Below, piece by piece: positions 1,355 to 18,981 of a DNA stretch of 42,687 bases (the first letter of the stretch is position 1; the number at the start of each line of letters is the position of its first letter). A program made the translations under genes and the position numbers. The notes under the pieces are model-generated. The model had not been told where the DNA came from, ran no database searches, and saw nothing but the letters and a program-made list of their open reading frames with translations. Source of the DNA: Candidatus Nanoarchaeia archaeon (lineage in GTDB: Archaea > Nanobdellota > Nanobdellia > Woesearchaeales > JAQUVJ01); contig JAQUVJ010000007.1 in the NCBI GenBank assembly GCA_028693395.1, forward strand, positions 2,803 through 45,489, read 5' to 3'.

Positions 1355-2620
1355 ATGAATTATAAAATAAAGAAAAATACAATAATCTTTCTTTTTTTTT
1401 TAACATTATTTTTTTTTTCAGGATGTAGTAAATATTTCGACTATAATCAAAATGGAAATGTTAGAGTTAGTTATAAACCAAAAGAAATTGATTCATTTTG
1501 TGGAAATAATATAAAGGAATTTGGAGAATCTTGTTCTAATTGTCCTGAAGATGTAAGATGTTTGGAAAATGAAACATGTTGTTATGGAAGATGTGAAAAA
1601 ATTAATTGTTATGTTGATAGTGATTGTGAAGATGAAAAAGCTTTTTCAATAAATTATTGTTTTTCAAAAGGAACTTGTGATTCAAAATGTTATTTTAATT
1701 ATTCAGAAGAATTTATAGATGAAATAGTAGTAATATATGAAGAAGAAGAAAAAAGATATTTTTCATATGATGAAGGATATTTTGATTTTAAAGAAGTTAA
1801 TTTTTTATCTGATTTTTATAAAGAACATGAAGATATTTATGATTTTTTAATAGTAGCACCACAAAAGGAAAAACTTTCATCTAGTTATCATTATAAGGTA
1901 AATTCTTTAGTTGAAAATATTGGATTTCCAATATACAATGATTCAAATTATAAATTTCTAAAATCACTTAATTTTTTGAGTTTTTATAACTCATATAAAG
2001 CAAATTTAAACAATAAAAATAAAAATAGATATAGTGAATTGATTTTAAGTATAGTTTTTCATGAAGTTGGACATCAATGGTGTTGTTATTTAGAAGGTTT
2101 GGGAAATTTTGAATATGCGTTACCTGGACATTGGACAAATAACTTGGATCTTTTTTCGGGTAATGAAAAAAATATAGACATTATGTCAACAAATCAATGG
2201 ATTAAAAAGGATGATGAAATGATTTGTAATGATATAAATTTTGTATCAAGAGGATTTTCAAATTTAACAATGTATTTAGCTGGATTTATTTCAAAAGATG
2301 AAGTAGGTCCACTTTATTTACATAGATTTCAAAGTTATAATAATAGTTCTAGGGATACTTGGGGACCTAGTTGTTATGATGATGTAAATTTTACAAAAAC
2401 AGAAATAATAACAATTGAAGATATAATTCAAAAAAATGGAGAAAGAATTCCAAGTTATAAAACAAGTCAAAAAGATTTTTATTTCAAATATGTAATTGTA
2501 GTTCCTTATGGAGATACTTTAAATACAGATTTTTTAGAATATATTAATATATATTTGACTCAAACACCACAATTATGGTCTGAGTATACAAATAATAAAT
2601 CAACAGCAAGAATTAGATGA
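1355..2620 (+). CDS. Exported Cys-rich lipoprotein with HExxH metalloprotease motif
   Basis: A 421-residue protein. The N-terminus has a basic start, a hydrophobic stretch and the lipobox-like FFSGC (Cys about residue 24), so it is probably a surface-anchored lipoprotein. Residues about 48-110 are Cys-rich (CGNNIKEFGESCSNCPED and similar), a pattern seen in many DPANN secreted proteins. Near residue 235 lies VFHEVGHQWCC, an HExxH zinc motif, followed by a Gly/Asp-rich region. This supports an extracellular zinc metalloprotease. Several N-x-S/T sites would suit archaeal glycosylation. It lies divergent to another HExxH protein; a shared role is possible but not shown. Substrate unknown. Confidence 0.7.
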   Translation: MNYKIKKNTIIFLFFLTLFFFSGCSKYFDYNQNGNVRVSYKPKEIDSFCGNNIKEFGESCSNCPEDVRCLENETCCYGRCEKINCYVDSDCEDEKAFSINYCFSKGTCDSKCYFNYSEEFIDEIVVIYEEEEKRYFSYDEGYFDFKEVNFLSDFYKEHEDIYDFLIVAPQKEKLSSSYHYKVNSLVENIGFPIYNDSNYKFLKSLNFLSFYNSYKANLNNKNKNRYSELILSIVFHEVGHQWCCYLEGLGNFEYALPGHWTNNLDLFSGNEKNIDIMSTNQWIKKDDEMICNDINFVSRGFSNLTMYLAGFISKDEVGPLYLHRFQSYNNSSRDTWGPSCYDDVNFTKTEIITIEDIIQKNGERIPSYKTSQKDFYFKYVIVVPYGDTLNTDFLEYINIYLTQTPQLWSEYTNNKSTARIR

Positions 2621-2710
2621 ATTATATATTTTATAAATATTAAATATAATATATTAAATATAAGGAATAATTAAAAATATTTATAAATTAAAAAAATATA
2701 AAAAATAAAA

Positions 2711-3418
2711 ATGGAAAAAATCTTATTAAATTTAAGAAAAGAATTGATTGAAAATATCGATGAAAAAACAAAAAATAGTGCTCAAAGATTTTTTAAAGAA
2801 AAGGTTGATTTTTATGGAGTTAAAACATCATTTGTAGGTAAAATCTCAAAAAATTATTTTAACGAAATAAAAGATTTATCAAAAGAAAAAATTTTTGAAA
2901 TGTGTGAAGAATTATTTATATCAAAAATATTAGAAGAATCTTTTATCGCATGTGATTGGTCTTATAAATTAGAAAAACAATATGAGCAAGAAGACTTTTT
3001 TGTTTTTGAAAAATGGTTAAAAAAATATGTGAATAATTGGGCAACATGTGATACACTTTGTAATCATACAATAGGAAGTTTTGTAGAAAAATATCCAAAA
3101 TATATAAATAAATTAAAGGATTGGACAGAATCTAAAAATCGTTGGGTAAAAAGAGGTGCAGCTGTAACATTAATTATTCCAGCAAGAAAAGGAAAATTCT
3201 TAGATGATATTTTTGAAATATCAGATCTTTTATTACAAGACAAAGATGATTTAGTTCAAAAAGGTTATGGATGGATGTTGAAGGCGTCAAGTGAATTTTA
3301 TCAAAAGGAAGTTTTTGACTATGTTATGAAAAATAAAAATAAAATGCCAAGAACTTCTTTAAGATATGCAATAGAAAAAATGCCAATTGATTTGAGAAAA
3401 AAAGCAATGGAAAAGTAG
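2711..3418 (+). CDS. AlkD-like DNA alkylation repair protein
   Basis: A 235-residue, all-helical protein of the DNA alkylation repair (AlkC/AlkD) HEAT-like family, whose members remove bulky or cationic alkylated bases without flipping them. The functional residues of Bacillus cereus AlkD (Trp109, Asp113, Arg148, Trp187) all have counterparts here: Trp110 and Asp114 in NNWATCDTLCNH, Arg148 in WVKRGA, and Trp188 in KGYGWMLK. Length matches the family. It starts at an ATG preceded by an A/T-only leader, consistent with leaderless expression. It appears monocistronic or leads into the small gene downstream after about 30 bases. Family confidence is high; lesion specificity cannot be read from the sequence. 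Confidence 0.88.
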   Translation: MEKILLNLRKELIENIDEKTKNSAQRFFKEKVDFYGVKTSFVGKISKNYFNEIKDLSKEKIFEMCEELFISKILEESFIACDWSYKLEKQYEQEDFFVFEKWLKKYVNNWATCDTLCNHTIGSFVEKYPKYINKLKDWTESKNRWVKRGAAVTLIIPARKGKFLDDIFEISDLLLQDKDDLVQKGYGWMLKASSEFYQKEVFDYVMKNKNKMPRTSLRYAIEKMPIDLRKKAMEK

Positions 3419-3447
3419 TTTATTAATATAAATAAAAATTATTTTTA

Positions 3448-3720
3448 ATGATTATTATGGAAAAGCATCCAAAAACGATAAAAGACTTTGAAGGAACATT
3501 TGAGGAATTAGCCAAATCAATAGGTAATATGTCATACGATCAGACATCATTATTTATTGAAAAATTAGCTGATGATATAAAAAATCAAGCAGATGCAGAT
3601 TCTAAAAGAGGAAGAAAACAATTGTCAGATAAATTATATAAAACATCACAAGAATTATACAAAGCAAAAGATGAAATGTTAAAAGCTTGGAAAATTTGTA
3701 AATCACATATGAAAAAATGA
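3448..3720 (+). CDS. Small helical hypothetical protein
   Basis: A 90-residue, highly charged, probably all-helical protein with no membrane segment or recognised motif. The start could also be the ATG three codons downstream (MEKHPKTIKDFEG). It follows the AlkD-like gene by 29 bases on the same strand and may share its transcript. Its last codons overlap by ATGA with a short ORF at 3717-3842. I do not recognise a family. The length, a good start region and the absence of low-complexity sequence make it a plausible real gene. Confidence 0.55.
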   Translation: MIIMEKHPKTIKDFEGTFEELAKSIGNMSYDQTSLFIEKLADDIKNQADADSKRGRKQLSDKLYKTSQELYKAKDEMLKAWKICKSHMKK

Positions 3721-3842
3721 TAAACATTGATGATAATATATTAAATTTAATAGAGATAATAAAAAATTTTTTTTTGTCCCCATTTGATAATGTTTCTACT
3801 ATTATTATTGCATGGAATTTTATACAGAAAGTAAAATCTTGA
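3717..3842 (+). CDS. Possible 41-residue ORF or remnant, overlapping upstream gene by ATGA
   Basis: It starts at an ATG that overlaps the TGA of the preceding gene (ATGA), the usual signature of translational coupling, and encodes 41 residues (MINIDDNILNLIEIIKNF, then LSPFDNVSTIIIAWNF). It runs into a second reading frame that carries on the similarity-like composition (see 3812-4090), so the two may be remnants of one gene separated by a frameshift. No family is recognised. It may equally be a real small protein. Confidence 0.25.
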   Translation: MINIDDNILNLIEIIKNFFLSPFDNVSTIIIAWNFIQKVKS

Positions 3843-4090
3843 TATTTAATACTGATGTTGATTATAATTTCAATAATAAATTAGAAGAAGTTATTAAAAT
3901 TATAAGTGAAAAATTTAATATTGATAGTTTTATTATTGATGTTGTTTAGGTAGGTAAAAAAAGTCTTGATTTGAATATAATTTTAAACTTATTAAAATTA
4001 GAAAATGAAAAAAATGTTGAAATTATTGATTTTATTAAAGAAAGATTTCATGAATCAAAAAATTGGATTATTGAAAAATCTAACAAATAA
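3812..4090 (+). pseudogene. ORF interrupted by an in-frame TAG; probable gene remnant
   Basis: From the ATG at 3812 a frame reads 45 codons, meets TAG at 3947-3949, and stays open for another 46 codons to a TAA at 4088-4090. Both halves have the same Lys/Asn/Ile-rich, well-formed helical composition (LEEVIKIISEKFNIDSFIID before the stop; LNIILNLLKLENEKNVEIID after it), which suggests one coding sequence with a single nonsense codon. It converges on the minus-strand gene that ends at 4080, overlapping it by 11 bases. Alternatives are two unrelated short ORFs by chance, or recoding of the amber codon, for which nothing else in the window argues. Confidence 0.35.
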
Positions 4091-4958
4091 TTGGATTTTC
4101 AGCATCACTTGAACAAACAATCATATTTTGTAAAATATAAAAAGAATCTATACTTGAATCATCGATTTTTGCTTTACAACAAATATTTCTAGCAGTATTT
4201 TGAGCTAAAATATTATATTTTTCTTCTGCTTGAATTTTTGAAAACTCCGCACTCTGTAAATCAGATTCTAATTCGGTCTTTTCATTCATAATTAAATTTA
4301 CTTCTGTTTGTATTTTTTTTTCACATTCTTGATTTATTTGAGAAATTTGAAAAATATAATTATTTATTTCATCTTTATGTGCTATTTCTTTTTCACTTAT
4401 ATTTATTTTGAATTCTTTGTTTAAATTAGTTAATTCTTGTTCTAAATTTTTTGATTTTTCTTTATATTCGAAACTTTCATTTTTTGTTTTTTCTAAATTT
4501 TCACTAATTATTTTATTCATAGAATCTAGATTTTTTACTTCTTCTAATAATTCTTTATTTTTATTTTCTAATTCAGTTAATTTTGCAAAGTATTCATCAG
4601 AACTCATTTCTTGCCCATTAAATTGTTTAATAGTATGATATCCTGCATTTAATAAAGGTAATATTACTGATATTACTATGATTAAGAAAGCACATATTAT
4701 AATAAAAACAGTGCTGTGTTCATGTGTAAAATTTTCAATAATATTAAATTCAAGCCCTTTAAATTTTTTTTTAGAATTGTTTTTATCATTTTTGAAATTA
4801 TTTTTTTCAATGTTATTATCATTTTTATTTGAGTTGTTTTCATTTGATAAATCAATAGATTCTTCAAAAGAATGTTTAAGATTTGAATCATAAGTTCTAT
4901 TTTTACTTTTTTTTTCTAAATGTTTATCAAGATCTTTGTTAATATCAAATTTTTTCAT
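4080..4958 (-). CDS. Membrane-anchored coiled-coil protein
   Basis: A 292-residue protein. Residues 1-80 are hydrophilic, rich in Lys, Asn and Asp; one transmembrane helix follows (about 84-107, VFIIICAFLIIVISVILPLL). Next is a long heptad-like coiled coil (about 125-245, Glu/Lys/Leu/Asn). The short C-terminal module contains NICCKAKID and IVCSSDAENPIIC, with several cysteines. Similar TM plus coiled coil plus Cys-tail proteins occur in DPANN genomes without assigned function. By topology the coiled coil is probably outside the cell, but orientation is inferred only from charge distribution. It is convergent with the decayed ORF at its 3' end. Confidence 0.65.
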   Translation of the reverse strand: MKKFDINKDLDKHLEKKSKNRTYDSNLKHSFEESIDLSNENNSNKNDNNIEKNNFKNDKNNSKKKFKGLEFNIIENFTHEHSTVFIIICAFLIIVISVILPLLNAGYHTIKQFNGQEMSSDEYFAKLTELENKNKELLEEVKNLDSMNKIISENLEKTKNESFEYKEKSKNLEQELTNLNKEFKINISEKEIAHKDEINNYIFQISQINQECEKKIQTEVNLIMNEKTELESDLQSAEFSKIQAEEKYNILAQNTARNICCKAKIDDSSIDSFYILQNMIVCSSDAENPIIC

Positions 4959-5062
4959 ATCATTTCTAAATATTTTGTGTTTTTAAATGTTACTATTTTG
5001 TTTAGAAAATAAGAAAAAAAATAGAAAAAGAAATTAAAAAATAAAATACAAAAAAAATAAAA

Positions 5063-7690
5063 TTATTTATTATTTTTTATTGTTGATTGTGCTGCTGCAA
5101 GTCTTGCAATTGGAACTCTAAAAGGAGAACAACTTACATAATTTAATCCAACTTTTTCACAAAAATCTATTGATTTTGGGTTTCCTCCATGTTCTCCACA
5201 GATTCCTAATTTGAAATCCGGTTTTTCATTTCTAGATTTTATTACAGCCATTTCAACTAATTGTCCAGGACCTTCTGTATCTAATGATTCAAAAGGATCT
5301 TCTTCGATTATATTTTTGTCTAAATAATATCCTAAGAATTTTCCTACATCATCTCTTGAAAATCCTAAAGTCATTTGAGTTAAATCGTTTGTTCCAAAAG
5401 AAAAGAAGTCAGCTTCTTTTACAATTTTATCAGCACAAAGAGCAGCTCTTGGAGTTTCAATCATCGTTCCTATTTTGTAATCTATTGTTTTTGATTTTTC
5501 TTCAAAGACTTTATTTATTGTTTCAATTATAATGTTTTTTTGGTTTGTTAATTCATTAACATTTCCAATTAAAGGGACCATTATTTCTGGAACAATGTTT
5601 ATATTTTTTTCAATTGATACTTCAATTGCAGCTTCCATAATTGCTCTTATTTGCATTTCTGTAATTTCTGGATATGTTATTCCAAGTCTACATCCTCTAT
5701 GTCCCATCATTGGATTTACTTCTTCTAATTTTTCCATGTTTATTCTGATTTCTTCAATTGCTATGTTTAATGATTTTGCTAAATCTTCAATTTCAGATTC
5801 TTCATTTGGTAAAAATTCGTGTAAAGGAGGATCTAACAATCTTATTGTTACAGGTTTTTCTAACATTAAAGAATAGATTCCTTTGAAATCAGATTTTTGA
5901 AATGGTAAAACTTTTTTAAGAGCAATTTCTCTTTGTTCTTTTGTTTTTGATAAAATCATTTCTCTTACAGCTTTAATTCTTTCTTTTCCAAAAAACATAT
6001 GTTCTGTTCTGCAAAGTCCAATTCCTTGTGCACCAAAATTTAAAGCAGTTTGTGCATCTTTTGGAGTGTCTGCATTTGTTCTAATTTGAAGTCTTCTATA
6101 TTTATCTGCAATTTTCATTAATTTTTCAAAATTTCCTGATAATGTTGGTTCTTCAAGTTCAAGTTCGCAATTATAAACAGCACCAGTAGTTCCATTTAAA
6201 GTAATAAAATCTCCTTCTTTTAACACAATATTTTTTACAGTTATTGTTTTTGTTTCTTCATCAATATTTAATTCACTACATCCAGCAACACAACACTTAC
6301 CCATTCCTCTAGCAACAACCGCAGCATGTGATGTCATTCCTCCTCTTGCTGTTAATATTCCTTGAGAAGCATCCATTCCAATTATGTCTTCAGGTGAAGT
6401 TTCGTTTCTAACTAAAATAACTTTTTCTCCACTTTCTGATGCACTTTTTGCATCCATTGCATTAAAAACAATCTTTCCAACGGCTGCTCCTGGTGATGCA
6501 GGTAATCCTTTAGCTATTATATTTGCATTTATTGCTTTATTTTCATTAATTTGTTTATGTAAAAGTTGATTTAATGAATTAGGATCAATTCTTAAAATTG
6601 CTTCTTCTTCTGAGATTTTTCCTTCTTCTAGTAAGTCTATAGCAATATTTACAGCTGCATTTCCTGTTCTTTTTCCATTTCTTGTTTGTAAAATGTATAA
6701 TTTTCCTTCTTGAATTGTAAATTCGATATCTTGCATATCTTTATAGTGATTTTCAAGTTTTTCTCTAATATCAACTAATTCATTATAGATTTCAGGCATA
6801 ATTTCTTTTAATTCTTCAATTGATTGTGGAGTTCTAATTCCTGCAACAACATCTTCACCTTGTGCATTTATTAAAAATTCTCCATAAAATTTATTTTCTC
6901 CATTTGATGGATTTCTTGTAAAACAAACACCAGTTCCACTAGTATTTCCCATATTTCCAAATACCATTGCTTGAACATTTACAGCAGTTCCTAAAAGACC
7001 TTTTATATTATTTAATTTTCTATAAAAAATAGCTCTTTCATTATTCCATGAGTTAAAAACTGCATCAATTGCCATTTGTAATTGTTCTCTTGGATTTTGT
7101 GGAAAATCATATCCTTTTGTATCTCTAATTACTTTTTTATAACTTTCAATTACTTCTTTTAAATCTTGAGAATTTAATTCAACATCTGTTGCAACATTTC
7201 TTTCTTTTTTTTTGTTTTCTAAAATTTCTTCAAATTTTGAATGTGAAACTTCCATAACAACATCTCCAAACATTTGAATAAATCTTCTATAAGCATCAAG
7301 AGCAAATCTTTCATTATTTGTTTTTGTAGCAAGTCCTATAACAGAATTATCATTTAAACCTAAATTCAAAACGGTATCCATCATTCCAGGCATTGAAACT
7401 GCAGCACCTGATCTAACAGAAACAAGTAAAGGATCACTTTCATCTCCTAATTTTTTACCCATTTCTTCTTCTAATTTAGCAAGATTTTCATTTATTTGAT
7501 TAATTACTTCAATTGGATGTGATTTATTATTTTTGTAATAAATATCACAAGCTTGTGTTGTAATTGTGAAACCTGATGAAACAGGTAGTCCAATTTTTTT
7601 CATTTCAGCAAGGTTTGCACCTTTTCCTCCTAGTAACTGCTTTTGTTCTTTACTTCCTTCATAAAAACTATAGACAAATTTTTCTTCCAT
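5063..7690 (-). CDS. ppdK: Pyruvate, phosphate dikinase
   Basis: Interconverts pyruvate + ATP + Pi and phosphoenolpyruvate + AMP + PPi in the cytoplasm, linking lower glycolysis and gluconeogenesis. The chosen start, the ATG at 7690, gives 875 residues, close to the 874 of the Clostridium symbiosum enzyme. It sits eight bases after a GGTG ribosome-binding-like motif; a GTG three codons upstream is less likely. The N-terminal ATP-grasp domain begins LLGGKGANLAEM. The swivelling phosphohistidine domain has GGMTSHAAVVARGM with His455, the number it has in C. symbiosum. The C-terminal PEP/pyruvate TIM barrel has FSFGTNDLTQMTLGFSRDD and LGICGEHGG, with the catalytic Cys. All domains are intact. 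It appears monocistronic, with T-rich DNA (minus strand) downstream at 4990-5060. Confidence 0.97.
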   Translation of the reverse strand: MEEKFVYSFYEGSKEQKQLLGGKGANLAEMKKIGLPVSSGFTITTQACDIYYKNNKSHPIEVINQINENLAKLEEEMGKKLGDESDPLLVSVRSGAAVSMPGMMDTVLNLGLNDNSVIGLATKTNNERFALDAYRRFIQMFGDVVMEVSHSKFEEILENKKKERNVATDVELNSQDLKEVIESYKKVIRDTKGYDFPQNPREQLQMAIDAVFNSWNNERAIFYRKLNNIKGLLGTAVNVQAMVFGNMGNTSGTGVCFTRNPSNGENKFYGEFLINAQGEDVVAGIRTPQSIEELKEIMPEIYNELVDIREKLENHYKDMQDIEFTIQEGKLYILQTRNGKRTGNAAVNIAIDLLEEGKISEEEAILRIDPNSLNQLLHKQINENKAINANIIAKGLPASPGAAVGKIVFNAMDAKSASESGEKVILVRNETSPEDIIGMDASQGILTARGGMTSHAAVVARGMGKCCVAGCSELNIDEETKTITVKNIVLKEGDFITLNGTTGAVYNCELELEEPTLSGNFEKLMKIADKYRRLQIRTNADTPKDAQTALNFGAQGIGLCRTEHMFFGKERIKAVREMILSKTKEQREIALKKVLPFQKSDFKGIYSLMLEKPVTIRLLDPPLHEFLPNEESEIEDLAKSLNIAIEEIRINMEKLEEVNPMMGHRGCRLGITYPEITEMQIRAIMEAAIEVSIEKNINIVPEIMVPLIGNVNELTNQKNIIIETINKVFEEKSKTIDYKIGTMIETPRAALCADKIVKEADFFSFGTNDLTQMTLGFSRDDVGKFLGYYLDKNIIEEDPFESLDTEGPGQLVEMAVIKSRNEKPDFKLGICGEHGGNPKSIDFCEKVGLNYVSCSPFRVPIARLAAAQSTIKNNK

Positions 7691-14603: not shown

Positions 14604-14625
14604 TTTGAATGAATTTTATAAAAAT

Positions 14626-15165
14626 ATGATAAGAAAAATGAATAAAAAAGCAATTGAATTAAGTATTAATTTTATTGTAATTATGGTTATATCATTAATT
14701 GTTTTTGTTTTAGCAATTGGAATTTTAGGAATGATTCGAAACAGTGCAAATGATCAAATTTTAATGTCTGAATCTCAATTTAAGGCAGAAATAGAAAAAA
14801 TGCTTACTGATACTGATGATTCATTTGCAATTCCTTTTGCAGTTGTTGAATTAAAATCTAACAAAGCTTATGTTTTAGAAACAGGAATAAAAAATAAGAT
14901 TGTTGATAATCTTTATTTTAATATATCTGTTGAATTGTTTAAAGCAATTGATTTTAATGGAGATACAATAACAGATAATCCAGAGATTACTTATGGTAAA
15001 GATTTAGTTCATTTAGATAAAAACGAAATAGTTCAAAGAAAAATAATGTTTTCAAAAATGACACAGAAAGGAAGTTATATATACCAATTAAATTTATCGA
15101 ATAGTAATGATGGTTCTAATTTTAATCATCAAGAAAGTCATTTATTTACAATAACCGTAAATTAA
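14626..15165 (+). CDS. Prepilin-like protein
   Basis: About 179 residues from the ATG at 14626 (MIRKMNKKAIELSINF); an ATG at 14605 would add seven. A short basic N-terminus is followed directly by a hydrophobic helix (AIELSINFIVIMVISLIVFVL). The acidic residue close to the start of the helix is the layout of archaeal type IV prepilins, which are processed after the basic stretch. The rest is a hydrophilic, probably extracellular beta-rich domain (ITYGKDLVHLDKNEIVQRK). It probably acts as a pilin or pilin-like subunit with the assembly ATPase at 34.3 kb. Followed after about 28 bases by aIF2 beta. Confidence 0.65.
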   Translation: MIRKMNKKAIELSINFIVIMVISLIVFVLAIGILGMIRNSANDQILMSESQFKAEIEKMLTDTDDSFAIPFAVVELKSNKAYVLETGIKNKIVDNLYFNISVELFKAIDFNGDTITDNPEITYGKDLVHLDKNEIVQRKIMFSKMTQKGSYIYQLNLSNSNDGSNFNHQESHLFTITVN

Positions 15166-15706: not shown

Positions 15707-17245
15707 ATGTCAAAAAAATGTGTTTCACCATTAATAGCTACCGTTTTATTAATTGCATTTACAGTTGCAATTGGATCAGTGGTAATGAATTGGGGAACAA
15801 CTTATATAAAATCTGAACAAGAATCTGCAACAAGCACATCTGATGTAAGATTAAAATGTGCAACAGATGTTAATCTAAAATTAATGAAAATCAAAGGAAT
15901 GCAAGATTATTGTTACACAAATGATTCAGAAAACGTAACAATTTCAGTAAGATTAACAAAAGGAAATGAAAACTTAAAAGGAATTAGAGCAAATATAATT
16001 TCAAATGAAGAAAGTCAATCATCTAATTACAATAAAGAAATAGATGAATTAAATTTTCAAATAAATTTAGGAGGATTTTCTATAGATATAATTAAAAATG
16101 ATTTAATAGAATATTTAGAATTAGTTCCATATATAGATAATAATGGATTAGATTATTATTGTAGTGGATCAAGGTTAGTAATAAGTGATTTATATTCTTG
16201 TGATTTTGAAATTAATAATCCATATACTCCAAATGAAATAGAAGATCCAGAAGATCCAGAAGATCCAGAACAAACAGGTGATTGCACAACATATTTAGAT
16301 TGTCCAAGTGGTCAATTTTGTGATATTTATGGTTTTAACAATCCAGCAGGAACATGTGTAGATTTTTGTCAAGGAGGTCCAGAAAAAATAGATAAAAAAG
16401 TTTGGGGAATACAAAGTGGTGAAATTAGAATAGGTTTGGAATATACTCAATCATTTTTTGGATCAAATTTTACAATTGATTCAGATTGGAATTATAGCTG
16501 TCAAAGTTATGGAACAACATTAAACGATGATTTATGTCCCGAAGAAATGGCATTTATAAATAAATTGGGAGGATATTGTATAGACAAATACGAAGCCCAT
16601 GCAATAAATATGACTACAAATGAGTCTTTAGTTTTAACAACTTTTTTAAATGATACTACAGCATTAATGGCAGGTTCTTCTGTTAATAAGAGTCCATGGG
16701 TTAATATTAATTTGTCACAAGCACAACAAGCTTGTGAAAATGCTGGAAAATATTTATGCACAAATTCGCAGTGGCAAGGTGCAGCAAACTTAAATGGACA
16801 ATTACATAATTTAGATACAATGGATACTTATGGATGTGTAGTCAGTAGTTTAACATATTGTATTAACGGAAATTATTATGCTAATTTAGGTTCTGGGACC
16901 TATGCTTGTAAAACAGGATATAATAAAAATGGACCAAATAATTGTGTATCATATGAGGGAGTATATGATTTATTTGGAAATGTATATGACACGGTAAATG
17001 ATACGATAGATCGTGAAGGTTCTAATATTTGGAATTTTGTAAGTGATGAAGGTTATTGGATTAGTGAAGAAGAAGATATTTATCAAGGAGCTGTTTTTTT
17101 TTGGATATCCAATATGGCTTCTGTTAGACGTGGTGGTTGTTGGTCTACTGGTACAAATGCAGGCCCATTCTGTGGACATTTGTTTTATCAAGGATCTATT
17201 TATCAAAATTATTATGGTTTTAGATGTTGTAGTGATATTAAATAG
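15707..17245 (+). CDS. Prepilin-like protein fused to an FGE/SUMF1-type C-type-lectin-like domain
   Basis: A 512-residue protein. The N-terminus MSKKCVSPLIATVLLIAFTV is the class of archaeal pilin/archaellin start in which a short basic leader precedes a membrane helix. A beta-rich stalk follows. An EDP repeat linker (three copies of gaagatcca at 16241-16267) leads to a Cys-rich knob (CTTYLDCPSGQFCD), then an FGE-sulfatase (SUMF1-like) domain from about residue 275. That domain contains GGYCIDKYEAHAIN, QAQQACENAGKYLCTNSQWQ, YDLFGNVYD and the terminal RRGGCWSTGTNAGPF to YGFRCC. The Cys arrangement of true formylglycine-generating enzymes is not evident, so the domain is more likely a displayed ligand-binding module. 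The end resembles retroelement-diversified proteins (see findings). Confidence 0.85.
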   Translation: MSKKCVSPLIATVLLIAFTVAIGSVVMNWGTTYIKSEQESATSTSDVRLKCATDVNLKLMKIKGMQDYCYTNDSENVTISVRLTKGNENLKGIRANIISNEESQSSNYNKEIDELNFQINLGGFSIDIIKNDLIEYLELVPYIDNNGLDYYCSGSRLVISDLYSCDFEINNPYTPNEIEDPEDPEDPEQTGDCTTYLDCPSGQFCDIYGFNNPAGTCVDFCQGGPEKIDKKVWGIQSGEIRIGLEYTQSFFGSNFTIDSDWNYSCQSYGTTLNDDLCPEEMAFINKLGGYCIDKYEAHAINMTTNESLVLTTFLNDTTALMAGSSVNKSPWVNINLSQAQQACENAGKYLCTNSQWQGAANLNGQLHNLDTMDTYGCVVSSLTYCINGNYYANLGSGTYACKTGYNKNGPNNCVSYEGVYDLFGNVYDTVNDTIDREGSNIWNFVSDEGYWISEEEDIYQGAVFFWISNMASVRRGGCWSTGTNAGPFCGHLFYQGSIYQNYYGFRCCSDIK

Positions 17246-17356: not shown

Positions 17357-18583
17357 ATGTTTAATAAAAAATCAAATGTTCACTTAGATTGGATATTATC
17401 TTTTTTCCTTTTTTTTGGATTTGTTGTTTTTGCAATGACTTTTTTTGTTCCAAAAATAACAGGTGAAAAACAAGGAGAAATTACATATATTTCCAGAATA
17501 AAAGAATTTCTTGGAGAAAAAGTTGCTATTCAGGAAGTTTATTTAAGTGATATGACAAATTCTTCTTTTCTTGTTACATATGCTAATTCTATTGATATAG
17601 GAGAATATGATCTAGTTGAAAAAGATATGGTAAATGATTATTTTTACTACGATGATTTGTTATTTATAAAAAAGAAAAATGAAACAAAAAATGTTATTTT
17701 GAAAATAAATAATCCTATATATTCTTATGAATTAAATAATGAATATCAAATATATTATAGCGAAAATTTAACTTATAATAATTATTTTCAAATTTATAAT
17801 AATGAGGATAATCTTACAATTGATTTTGATGATTTTGATCTTATTTTTGATAATGGACATTTAATTCAAAATATTAATACAGGAAAAGAAAAATTTATAG
17901 GATTTTTTGATGTAAATTATTCATCTTATACAAGAAAATTTTTTATGAGTGATGATGAAACAATAAAAAGTTTTTATTATATAAATGAAGGAAATGAAGC
18001 AGTTTTTGAAAAAAAACAAATGAAGTATGTTTATTCAAAATCAGAAAATGTAAAAATAAATGGAATTTCAGTATCAAATAATATGACTTATTCTGTAGAA
18101 GGAACTACAAGTTATGTAATAGAAATAAATGGAATAACACATATTTTTTCACAAAAAGAGAAATCTGGTCTTTTAAAAATTGATTTTTATTTTGATGATG
18201 AATTTTATTATATTATTGAGTTTCAAACTTTAAAAGGTGCAATTATAGCAGAAAGTTTTAGTAAATCAAATACGAAAGGTAGTGATTATGATTTTCTAAA
18301 TAGGGGTTTTATTGAAACTAAAGATTCAGTTTTTAAAACATCAGAAAACTTTGCTAGTTTAGATTATAAAATAGTTAGTGAAGAATTAGGTTATAATTTT
18401 GCTCTTGTAATTTGGCAAGGAGGAGTTATGGATTCTTTTAATTTGTCTAATCAACCATTTTATAAATATAACATGGAAAAATTAGGAAATAATGGTTATA
18501 TTTTTTCAGATAGATTTGCAATGCATCATGTAGATAAATATGGTAATGATGAGATATTGACAATTTATTCAATACTATGGTGA
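17357..18583 (+). CDS. Large prepilin-like extracellular protein
   Basis: 408 residues. A basic start (MFNKKSNVHLDW) is followed by a strongly hydrophobic helix (ILSFFLFFGFVVFAMTFFV) and a long Asn/Tyr/Asp-rich domain with many N-x-S/T sequons, consistent with an extracellular glycoprotein anchored by a pilin-like helix. No enzyme motif is visible. The end overlaps the next prepilin-like gene by seven bases, so the two are translationally coupled and probably assembled together. Exact family unknown; minor pilin or adhesin is the best guess. Confidence 0.6.
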   Translation: MFNKKSNVHLDWILSFFLFFGFVVFAMTFFVPKITGEKQGEITYISRIKEFLGEKVAIQEVYLSDMTNSSFLVTYANSIDIGEYDLVEKDMVNDYFYYDDLLFIKKKNETKNVILKINNPIYSYELNNEYQIYYSENLTYNNYFQIYNNEDNLTIDFDDFDLIFDNGHLIQNINTGKEKFIGFFDVNYSSYTRKFFMSDDETIKSFYYINEGNEAVFEKKQMKYVYSKSENVKINGISVSNNMTYSVEGTTSYVIEINGITHIFSQKEKSGLLKIDFYFDDEFYYIIEFQTLKGAIIAESFSKSNTKGSDYDFLNRGFIETKDSVFKTSENFASLDYKIVSEELGYNFALVIWQGGVMDSFNLSNQPFYKYNMEKLGNNGYIFSDRFAMHHVDKYGNDEILTIYSILW

Positions 18584-18981
18584 TAAATATAAAAATAAAA
18601 AGTAAGAAAGGAGGAATTGTTATAATTGAAACATTTTTGTCAATTTTTATTCTATTTGTTTTTTTTATAGTATTTGCAGATATATCTCAAAAAGAAAATT
18701 TTATGTATGAATCAAGCTATGAATTCGCAAAAGAAGTGTTTAATGATCAAATACTAAGAGAATGTTTTGATTCGTTGGATTTTGGTTGTTATGAACATAT
18801 GCAAGGTTGTCTAAGTCGAGTTAATGAATTTTATTCAGGGGATGTAATTATTTGTGTAATGGATGATTATGTTTACCCAAATTTACCACCAAAAGAAGTT
18901 TCTAGTTTTAGATTATACAAATCTATGAAAAAAGGAGAATTTAAACCTCATGAAATAGGATTATATTTAATAAAAGATTAA
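18577..18981 (+). CDS. Small prepilin-like protein
   Basis: 134 residues. A basic leader ending KSKKGG precedes a hydrophobic helix (IVIIETFLSIFILFVFFIVF) with Glu at the sixth residue after the GG, very like a class III / type IV prepilin cleavage site and its conserved Glu. The small mature domain has several cysteines (ECFDSLDFGCYEHMQGC). It overlaps the upstream gene through ATGGTGATAA; the ribosome-binding-like GGTGAT lies within the start, so the true start could be slightly later. Probably a minor pilin co-assembled with the upstream protein. Confidence 0.6.
   Translation: MVINIKIKSKKGGIVIIETFLSIFILFVFFIVFADISQKENFMYESSYEFAKEVFNDQILRECFDSLDFGCYEHMQGCLSRVNEFYSGDVIICVMDDYVYPNLPPKEVSSFRLYKSMKKGEFKPHEIGLYLIKD

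Follow-up and report, generated by a model that had tools for sequence, protein, structure and literature searches.

Within a 42,687-nucleotide window (the whole stretch of archaeal DNA that was analyzed), one open reading frame raises the question of whether a pilin-type protein ends in a variable region (VR) written by a diversity-generating retroelement (DGR), and whether that region is still being rewritten. A first-pass annotation had read the gene as a pilin-FGE fusion whose C terminus looks like such a region. We examined its domains, paralogs, and tail, and searched for the reverse transcriptase (RT) and template repeat (TR) of a DGR.

An FGE domain on a pilin-type stalk

The pilin-FGE gene lies on contig C23 of the source assembly (G000), which comprises 1.12 Mb in 48 contigs and is 88.5% complete, so that about 11.5% of the genome is missing. 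Its features and those of two neighbors are as follows.

15707..17245, + strand: pilin-FGE fusion ORF, 512 amino acids (translation; PF03781 and TIGR02537 matches)
15707..16276, + strand: N-terminal pilin-type module, ~190 amino acids, starting MSKKC followed by VSPLIATVLLIAF (paralog matches to residues 1-195; TIGR02537, E=4e-4)
16238..16282, + strand: linker EIEDPEDPEDPEQTG (translation)
16529..17233, + strand: FGE/SUMF1-like (CLec-class) domain (PF03781, E=5.5e-6; profile matches to SUMF2, FGE, and CalU17 structures)
17129..17224, + strand: VR-like segment RGGCWSTGTNAGPFCGHLFYQGSIYQNYYGFR (gapless alignment to the DGR templates of relatives; codon analysis)
14605..15165, + strand: small neighbor protein with a pilin-like N-terminal hydrophobic helix (MNKKAIELSINFIVIMVISLIVFVLAIGIL), read from the sequence; without family match
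18577..18981, + strand: small neighbor protein with a pilin-like N-terminal hydrophobic helix, likewise read from the sequence; without convincing family match

The C-terminal FGE domain proposed in the first-pass annotation was recovered at residues 325 to 508, which match PF03781 (FGE-sulfatase) with 26.7 bits against a gathering score of 23.3 (E=5.5e-6). A profile built from this domain and its relatives (A4) matched the structures of SUMF2, FGE, and CalU17, with E values down to 2e-9. The proposed pilin-type N terminus held as a resemblance: the N-terminal sequence MSKKCVSPLIATVLLIAFTVAIGSVVMNWG is archaellin/type IV pilin-like and matched the corresponding model, TIGR02537, at E=4e-4, but its 19.8 bits fall short of the cutoff of 20, whereas a paralog bearing the same module clears that model with 23.5 bits. 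The UpsA model also matched (E=2e-4), far under its own cutoff. At residue -1 of the expected pilin-peptidase cleavage site, the alignment places Cys in the pilin-FGE protein versus Gly or Ser in the paralogs. Structure prediction for the full protein (7 sequences) gave a mean pLDDT of 36.3 and was unusable except for the N-terminal helix. Other neighbors of the gene include IF2-beta/IF5-type, Sm-like, and ThiF-family genes (profile matches). The genome encodes the archaellum motor ATPase FlaI (L024:2049-4847), in which a weak internal match to an intein N-terminal model (TIGR01445, E=0.022) is consistent with an inserted intein.

Residues 1 to 190 of the protein were found again, at 65 to 70% identity, in at least seven other genes of the genome, with paralogs of the stalk module on contigs C43, C26, C16, and C46. 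Their passengers are PKD-like domains and DUF285/PARCEL repeats (PF03382, TIGR02167), not FGE. Because these paralogs share the stalk and carry other passengers, the pilin-FGE gene is the FGE-bearing member of a stalk-plus-passenger surface-protein family. About eight surface genes combining the same pilin-type N terminus with DUF285/PARCEL repeats were located (L024:12363-15887, L025:5132-12507, L026:4234-10393, and L027:7499-11707), encoding about 390 to 1402 amino acids where complete. Tandem pairs on C16 and on C43 are near-identical across hundreds of codons, a similarity that suggests recent duplication or gene conversion. The closest paralog of the pilin-FGE stalk, 90.6% identical in DNA across 233 bp that include upstream sequence, lies at the end of contig C36 (L028:1-185); it is interrupted at codon 61 by the contig end, and its passenger domain is unassembled. 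Contigs C36 and C9 both stop inside further stalk-module copies. No close ortholog of the pilin-FGE gene was found among 241 order-mates or by a single-sequence scan of genome contigs, and no viral relative of the pilin module was found.

The FGE subfamily includes DGR targets

We scanned 60 RT loci from the same order for near-repeats differing almost solely at A in one copy, seeking TRs up to 6 kb from the VR. TR/VR pairs were present at about 40 of the 60 loci, and the TRs detected lay within about 3 kb of the VR. Most VRs of the order are of a different type, ending in RxxGI/V, which resembles the RFxGV motif of AvpA (PMC5006420). The pilin-FGE protein instead ends in YYGFRCC, with no AvpA-type RFxGV end.

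By tblastn, the closest whole-domain homologs of the FGE domain were L160 and L162 (both Pacearchaeota), L161, and the viral contig L144, at 38 to 42% identity. Comparison of each TR with its own VR gave 17 A mismatches and 0 others for L161 (template RGGNWNNGANAGPFSANLNNGPTDTNNNIGFRCC) and 13 A mismatches and 2 others for L162 (template RGGNWNNWANAGPFYANLNNDPSNVNNNIGFRCC). RTs are present in the genomes of both; none was found in those of L160 and L163. These data support placing the pilin-FGE domain in an FGE subfamily of which some members, L161 and L162 from Pacearchaeota and related bins, are real DGR targets. In the domain tree, the branch of the pilin-FGE domain is long (1.7); its nearest neighbors are L160, L144, and L162, but it does not fall firmly within the DGR-bearing clade. 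In L070 (G181), from the same order as the pilin-FGE genome, the TR is of FGE type (RGGNWDNGANAGVFTSNLNNGPTNSNSNIGFRCV), and the VR-bearing protein begins with the pilin-type sequence RRGQAALEFLTTYGWAF, as read from the sequence. Within L070:1768-5189, the VR (2871-2986) is followed downstream by the TR (3928-4043) and the RT (4239-5189). This DGR is apparently complete, with a pilin-type/FGE fusion as its target, and L070 is a clearer retroelement-diversified archaeal pilin-type protein than the pilin-FGE gene. Together, L161, L162, and L070 bear out the earlier statement that FGE-type domains serve as DGR targets.

The contig carrying L161 is binned as Babeliales yet bears an archaeal-type FGE DGR; the label probably reflects a binning error or gene transfer. 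On the 40.8-kb viral contig L144, where no RT was found, positions 1659-5762 encode a 1367-amino-acid protein with CBM96 and FGE domains. Set against the L161 template, its tail is a near-perfect DGR VR, differing at 17 of 25 A sites and 1 of 43 others. In sequenced phages, no FGE domain was found.

The tail is collinear with DGR templates

The 32-codon segment at 17129-17224 aligned without gaps to the TRs of its relatives (RGGCWSTGTNAGPFCGHLFYQGSIYQNYYGFRCC), retaining the RGG, W, G, N, AGPF, L, and GFRCC of the L161 and L162 TRs. Differences were scored at codon positions 1 and 2, which comprise 25 TR-adenine sites and 43 others. Relative to the L161 TR, 16 of the 25 adenine sites and 10 of the 43 others differed (p=0.0011); relative to the L162 TR, the counts were 14 of 25 and 10 of 43 (p=0.0071). 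We rejected the share of changed TR-A sites as a discriminator because all FGE proteins tested change 12 to 23 of the 25. Only a low number of non-A changes and A-depletion discriminate, and both are intermediate in this segment. Close VRs, active or probably active, set against a foreign subfamily TR showed 1 to 4 non-A differences in 43 (1 and 4 for L144, 4 for L161 against the L162 TR, and 4 for L162 against the L161 TR), and the RT-less L160 showed 8 of 43. The Gln (CAA) codons and the lost conserved Pro in the tail are not A-to-N products. A hairpin following the VR proved uninformative as a marker: AT-rich inverted repeats occur in the window, and active controls also have no clear hairpin.

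Adenine is depleted in the tail

The first-pass annotation had emphasized NNT codons at the positions expected to vary. These codons are present as quoted, but they are weak evidence. Throughout the window, T is the last base in 81 to 94% of Cys, His, Phe, Tyr, and Asn codons, which are therefore nearly uninformative. Four informative codons remain (Ser TCT, Thr ACT, Ser TCT, and Ile ATT; 0.53 x 0.29 x 0.53 x 0.50 = 0.04), and the NNT pattern by itself, at about p=0.04, was rejected as decisive. The accompanying statement that Ser mostly uses TCA was overstated, as TCA makes up only 40% of Ser codons.

A stronger signal than the NNT pattern, and one absent from the first-pass annotation, comes from the conserved residues of the tail, which are encoded by A-free codons seldom used in the genome: Arg CGT (1%), Gly GGC (1%), and Leu TTG (13%). 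GGT replaces GGA at conserved Gly, whereas the usual GGA encodes the two Gly residues outside the conserved positions. The segment contains 23 A, whereas its amino acid composition predicts 29.7 (p=0.0018); this depletion (z=-3.44) falls in the lowest 0.19% of 39,791 overlapping 32-codon segments from the genome's genes. Active VRs are more strongly depleted (11 versus 21.5, 13 versus 22.8, and 12 versus 22.7, observed versus expected), and the RT-less L160 is intermediate (20 versus 24.6). When each gene's own codon usage was taken as the reference, the pilin-FGE segment gave z=-2.8. On this scale, AT-rich VRs that are active or likely to be so scored -3.2 to -5.2, and clean non-VR FGE tails scored +0.9 to -1.9; L114 and L119, whose own tails resemble DGR VRs, were dropped as negative controls. 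The depletion peaks in the VR, and the rest of the FGE domain shows ordinary third-position T (z=0.15).

No reverse transcriptase or template repeat in the assembly

The window contains neither an RT nor a TR, confirming the earlier reading, and we extended the search to the rest of the assembly. PF00078 (RVT_1), positive in 64 of 241 genomes of the order, detected no RT in G000. A profile of six DGR RTs from the order likewise detected none there at E<=10, not even a degraded one, and found two RTs in G181 and three in G449. When a TR was sought in G000 by DNA near-copy, TR-like peptide, and domain profile, only the pilin-FGE gene itself matched, aside from short AT-rich chance matches in the near-copy search. 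The domain-profile search retrieves the TRs of G449 and G181 as separate matches. Because the same searches find both elements in relatives, the absence of RT and TR from G000 is informative. The available assembly (88.5% complete) thus holds neither a DGR-type RT nor a TR differing at adenines, the components of a complete cassette. A search of the genome for an RT and a near-copy was part of the refutation test named in the first-pass annotation; with its negative outcome in this assembly, the claim that the tail is under diversification now is unsupported.

Interpretation of the tail

On balance, we lean toward the reading that the tail, mounted on a pilin stalk, is a DGR variable region left orphaned and probably in decay, its RT/TR cassette now absent. 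The product would be a surface protein that joins an anchor of archaellin/type IV pilin type to a C-terminal FGE/C-type-lectin ligand-binding domain, and it may act as a host-binding pilus tip, as the first-pass annotation had envisaged. The last 32 FGE codons would descend from a DGR variable region that adenine-mutagenic retrohoming wrote in the past, either in this lineage or in its donor, with a template resembling RGGNWNNGxNAGPFxxNLNN...NNNIGFRCC as the source. The RT and TR cassette may then have been lost, or may never have been transferred along with the domain; with the cassette absent, the binding face would therefore now be fixed and drifting as ordinary sequence. A variable region that its retroelement has ceased to refresh would match this graded evidence. 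Decay is suggested by the 10 of 43 non-A differences (versus 1 to 4 of 43), the long branch of 1.7, the absence of an RT at E<=10, and the absence of a TR. The earlier description of the C terminus as VR-like was largely right as to homology with DGR targets and a partial DGR footprint, and it fits less well with the excess of non-A changes. Against a relic variable region stands the observation that these ligand-facing sites vary in non-DGR FGE domains as well.

Less probably, the tail belongs to an ordinary FGE-like binding domain that was never a DGR target, with RGG...GFRCC belonging to the FGE fold and the codons reflecting foreign origin or chance. Many Myxococcota and other bacterial FGE-like proteins (L166-L174) carry KYEA...GFRCC without a VR signature, L163 (Undinarchaeales) ends in GFRCC with neither A-depletion nor an RT, CGT occurs once more elsewhere in the FGE domain, and the failure to find an RT or TR in this genome points the same way. 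However, the tail matches the DGR subfamily exactly in its 32-residue length and AGPF...GFRCC pattern, a combination missing from the non-VR relatives in bacteria, and A-depletion is maximal in the VR, with third-position T ordinary (z=0.15) in the remaining domain. It is improbable that the tail is an active target diversified in trans, with the RT and TR in the ~11.5% of the genome that is unassembled (for example, beside the C36 paralog) or carried by a virus or plasmid. In favor of such a target, many genomes of the order (64 of 241) have an RT, the assembly is 88.5% complete, C36 opens partway through an N-module that matches the pilin-FGE gene at 90.6% DNA identity and lacks its passenger, the L162 TR lies 3.2 kb away, and remote targets exist, as acknowledged in a large DGR survey in which targets remote from the RT go undetected (PMC8144416). 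Nevertheless, the TRs found here lie within about 3 kb of the VR, the intact 25 kb downstream of the gene contains no TR, and the segment has more non-A differences than close active VRs. We thus see only a slim chance that a trans-acting RT is still rewriting the binding tip of an archaellum/type IV pilus-like fiber in this presumed symbiotic DPANN-type archaeon.

Comparison with known systems

It was already known that DPANN-type archaea have DGRs and that the targets of these DGRs adopt a CLec fold (PMC5006420). DUF1566-linked putative pilins have been mentioned among DGR targets (PMC6642488), as has homology of a DGR target to a Bacteroides pilin tip (PMC6199706). An archaeal pilin-FGE DGR target was not described anywhere in the literature searched, which did not cover the 2017 survey PMC5436926. 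The orphan variable region favored here would apparently represent an end state of a DGR target, in which a diversified binding domain is retained on a pilin stalk after the retroelement is gone; L070 offers a same-order precedent for a pilin-type protein as a DGR target. If the pili of small archaea are diversified in this manner, host attachment would be comparable to receptor switching in phages. Graded A-depletion at invariant codons also provides a simple way to seek orphan VRs in incomplete genomes.

The pilin-FGE protein shares with the FGE-type DGR target described in PMC5006420 an FGE-type domain, a C-terminal VR-like segment, an invariant GFR end strand, and a putative ligand-binding face; unlike that target, it is encoded without a TR or RT, and its VR-like segment contains non-A changes. 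AvpA-type archaeal DGR proteins (PMC5006420) also have a CLec fold, and AvpA is an archaeal DGR target, but it belongs to a distinct CLec subclass with an RFxGV end; similar ends are commoner in this order and differ from the pilin-FGE tail. L162 (JAPLYB010000041) and L161 (JAIPGS010000062) are closer, with 43 to 45% FGE-domain identity in alignments and an AGPF...GFRCC tail of equal length. In contrast to the pilin-FGE gene, both have a TR and RT, and in place of the pilin module their N-terminal parts are a beta-helix protein (L162) and a short membrane anchor (L161). The nearest FGE homolog, L160 (Pacearchaeota JAFCEL010000001, a 511-kb contig), has an AGPFC...GFRCC tail with intermediate A-depletion and, as in G000, no RT in its ~500-kb genome, although its N terminus is not a pilin module. 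L070 likewise fuses a pilin-type N terminus to an FGE VR; it differs from the pilin-FGE gene in having a complete DGR downstream and a different pilin type, and the FGE domains of the two are only 29% identical.
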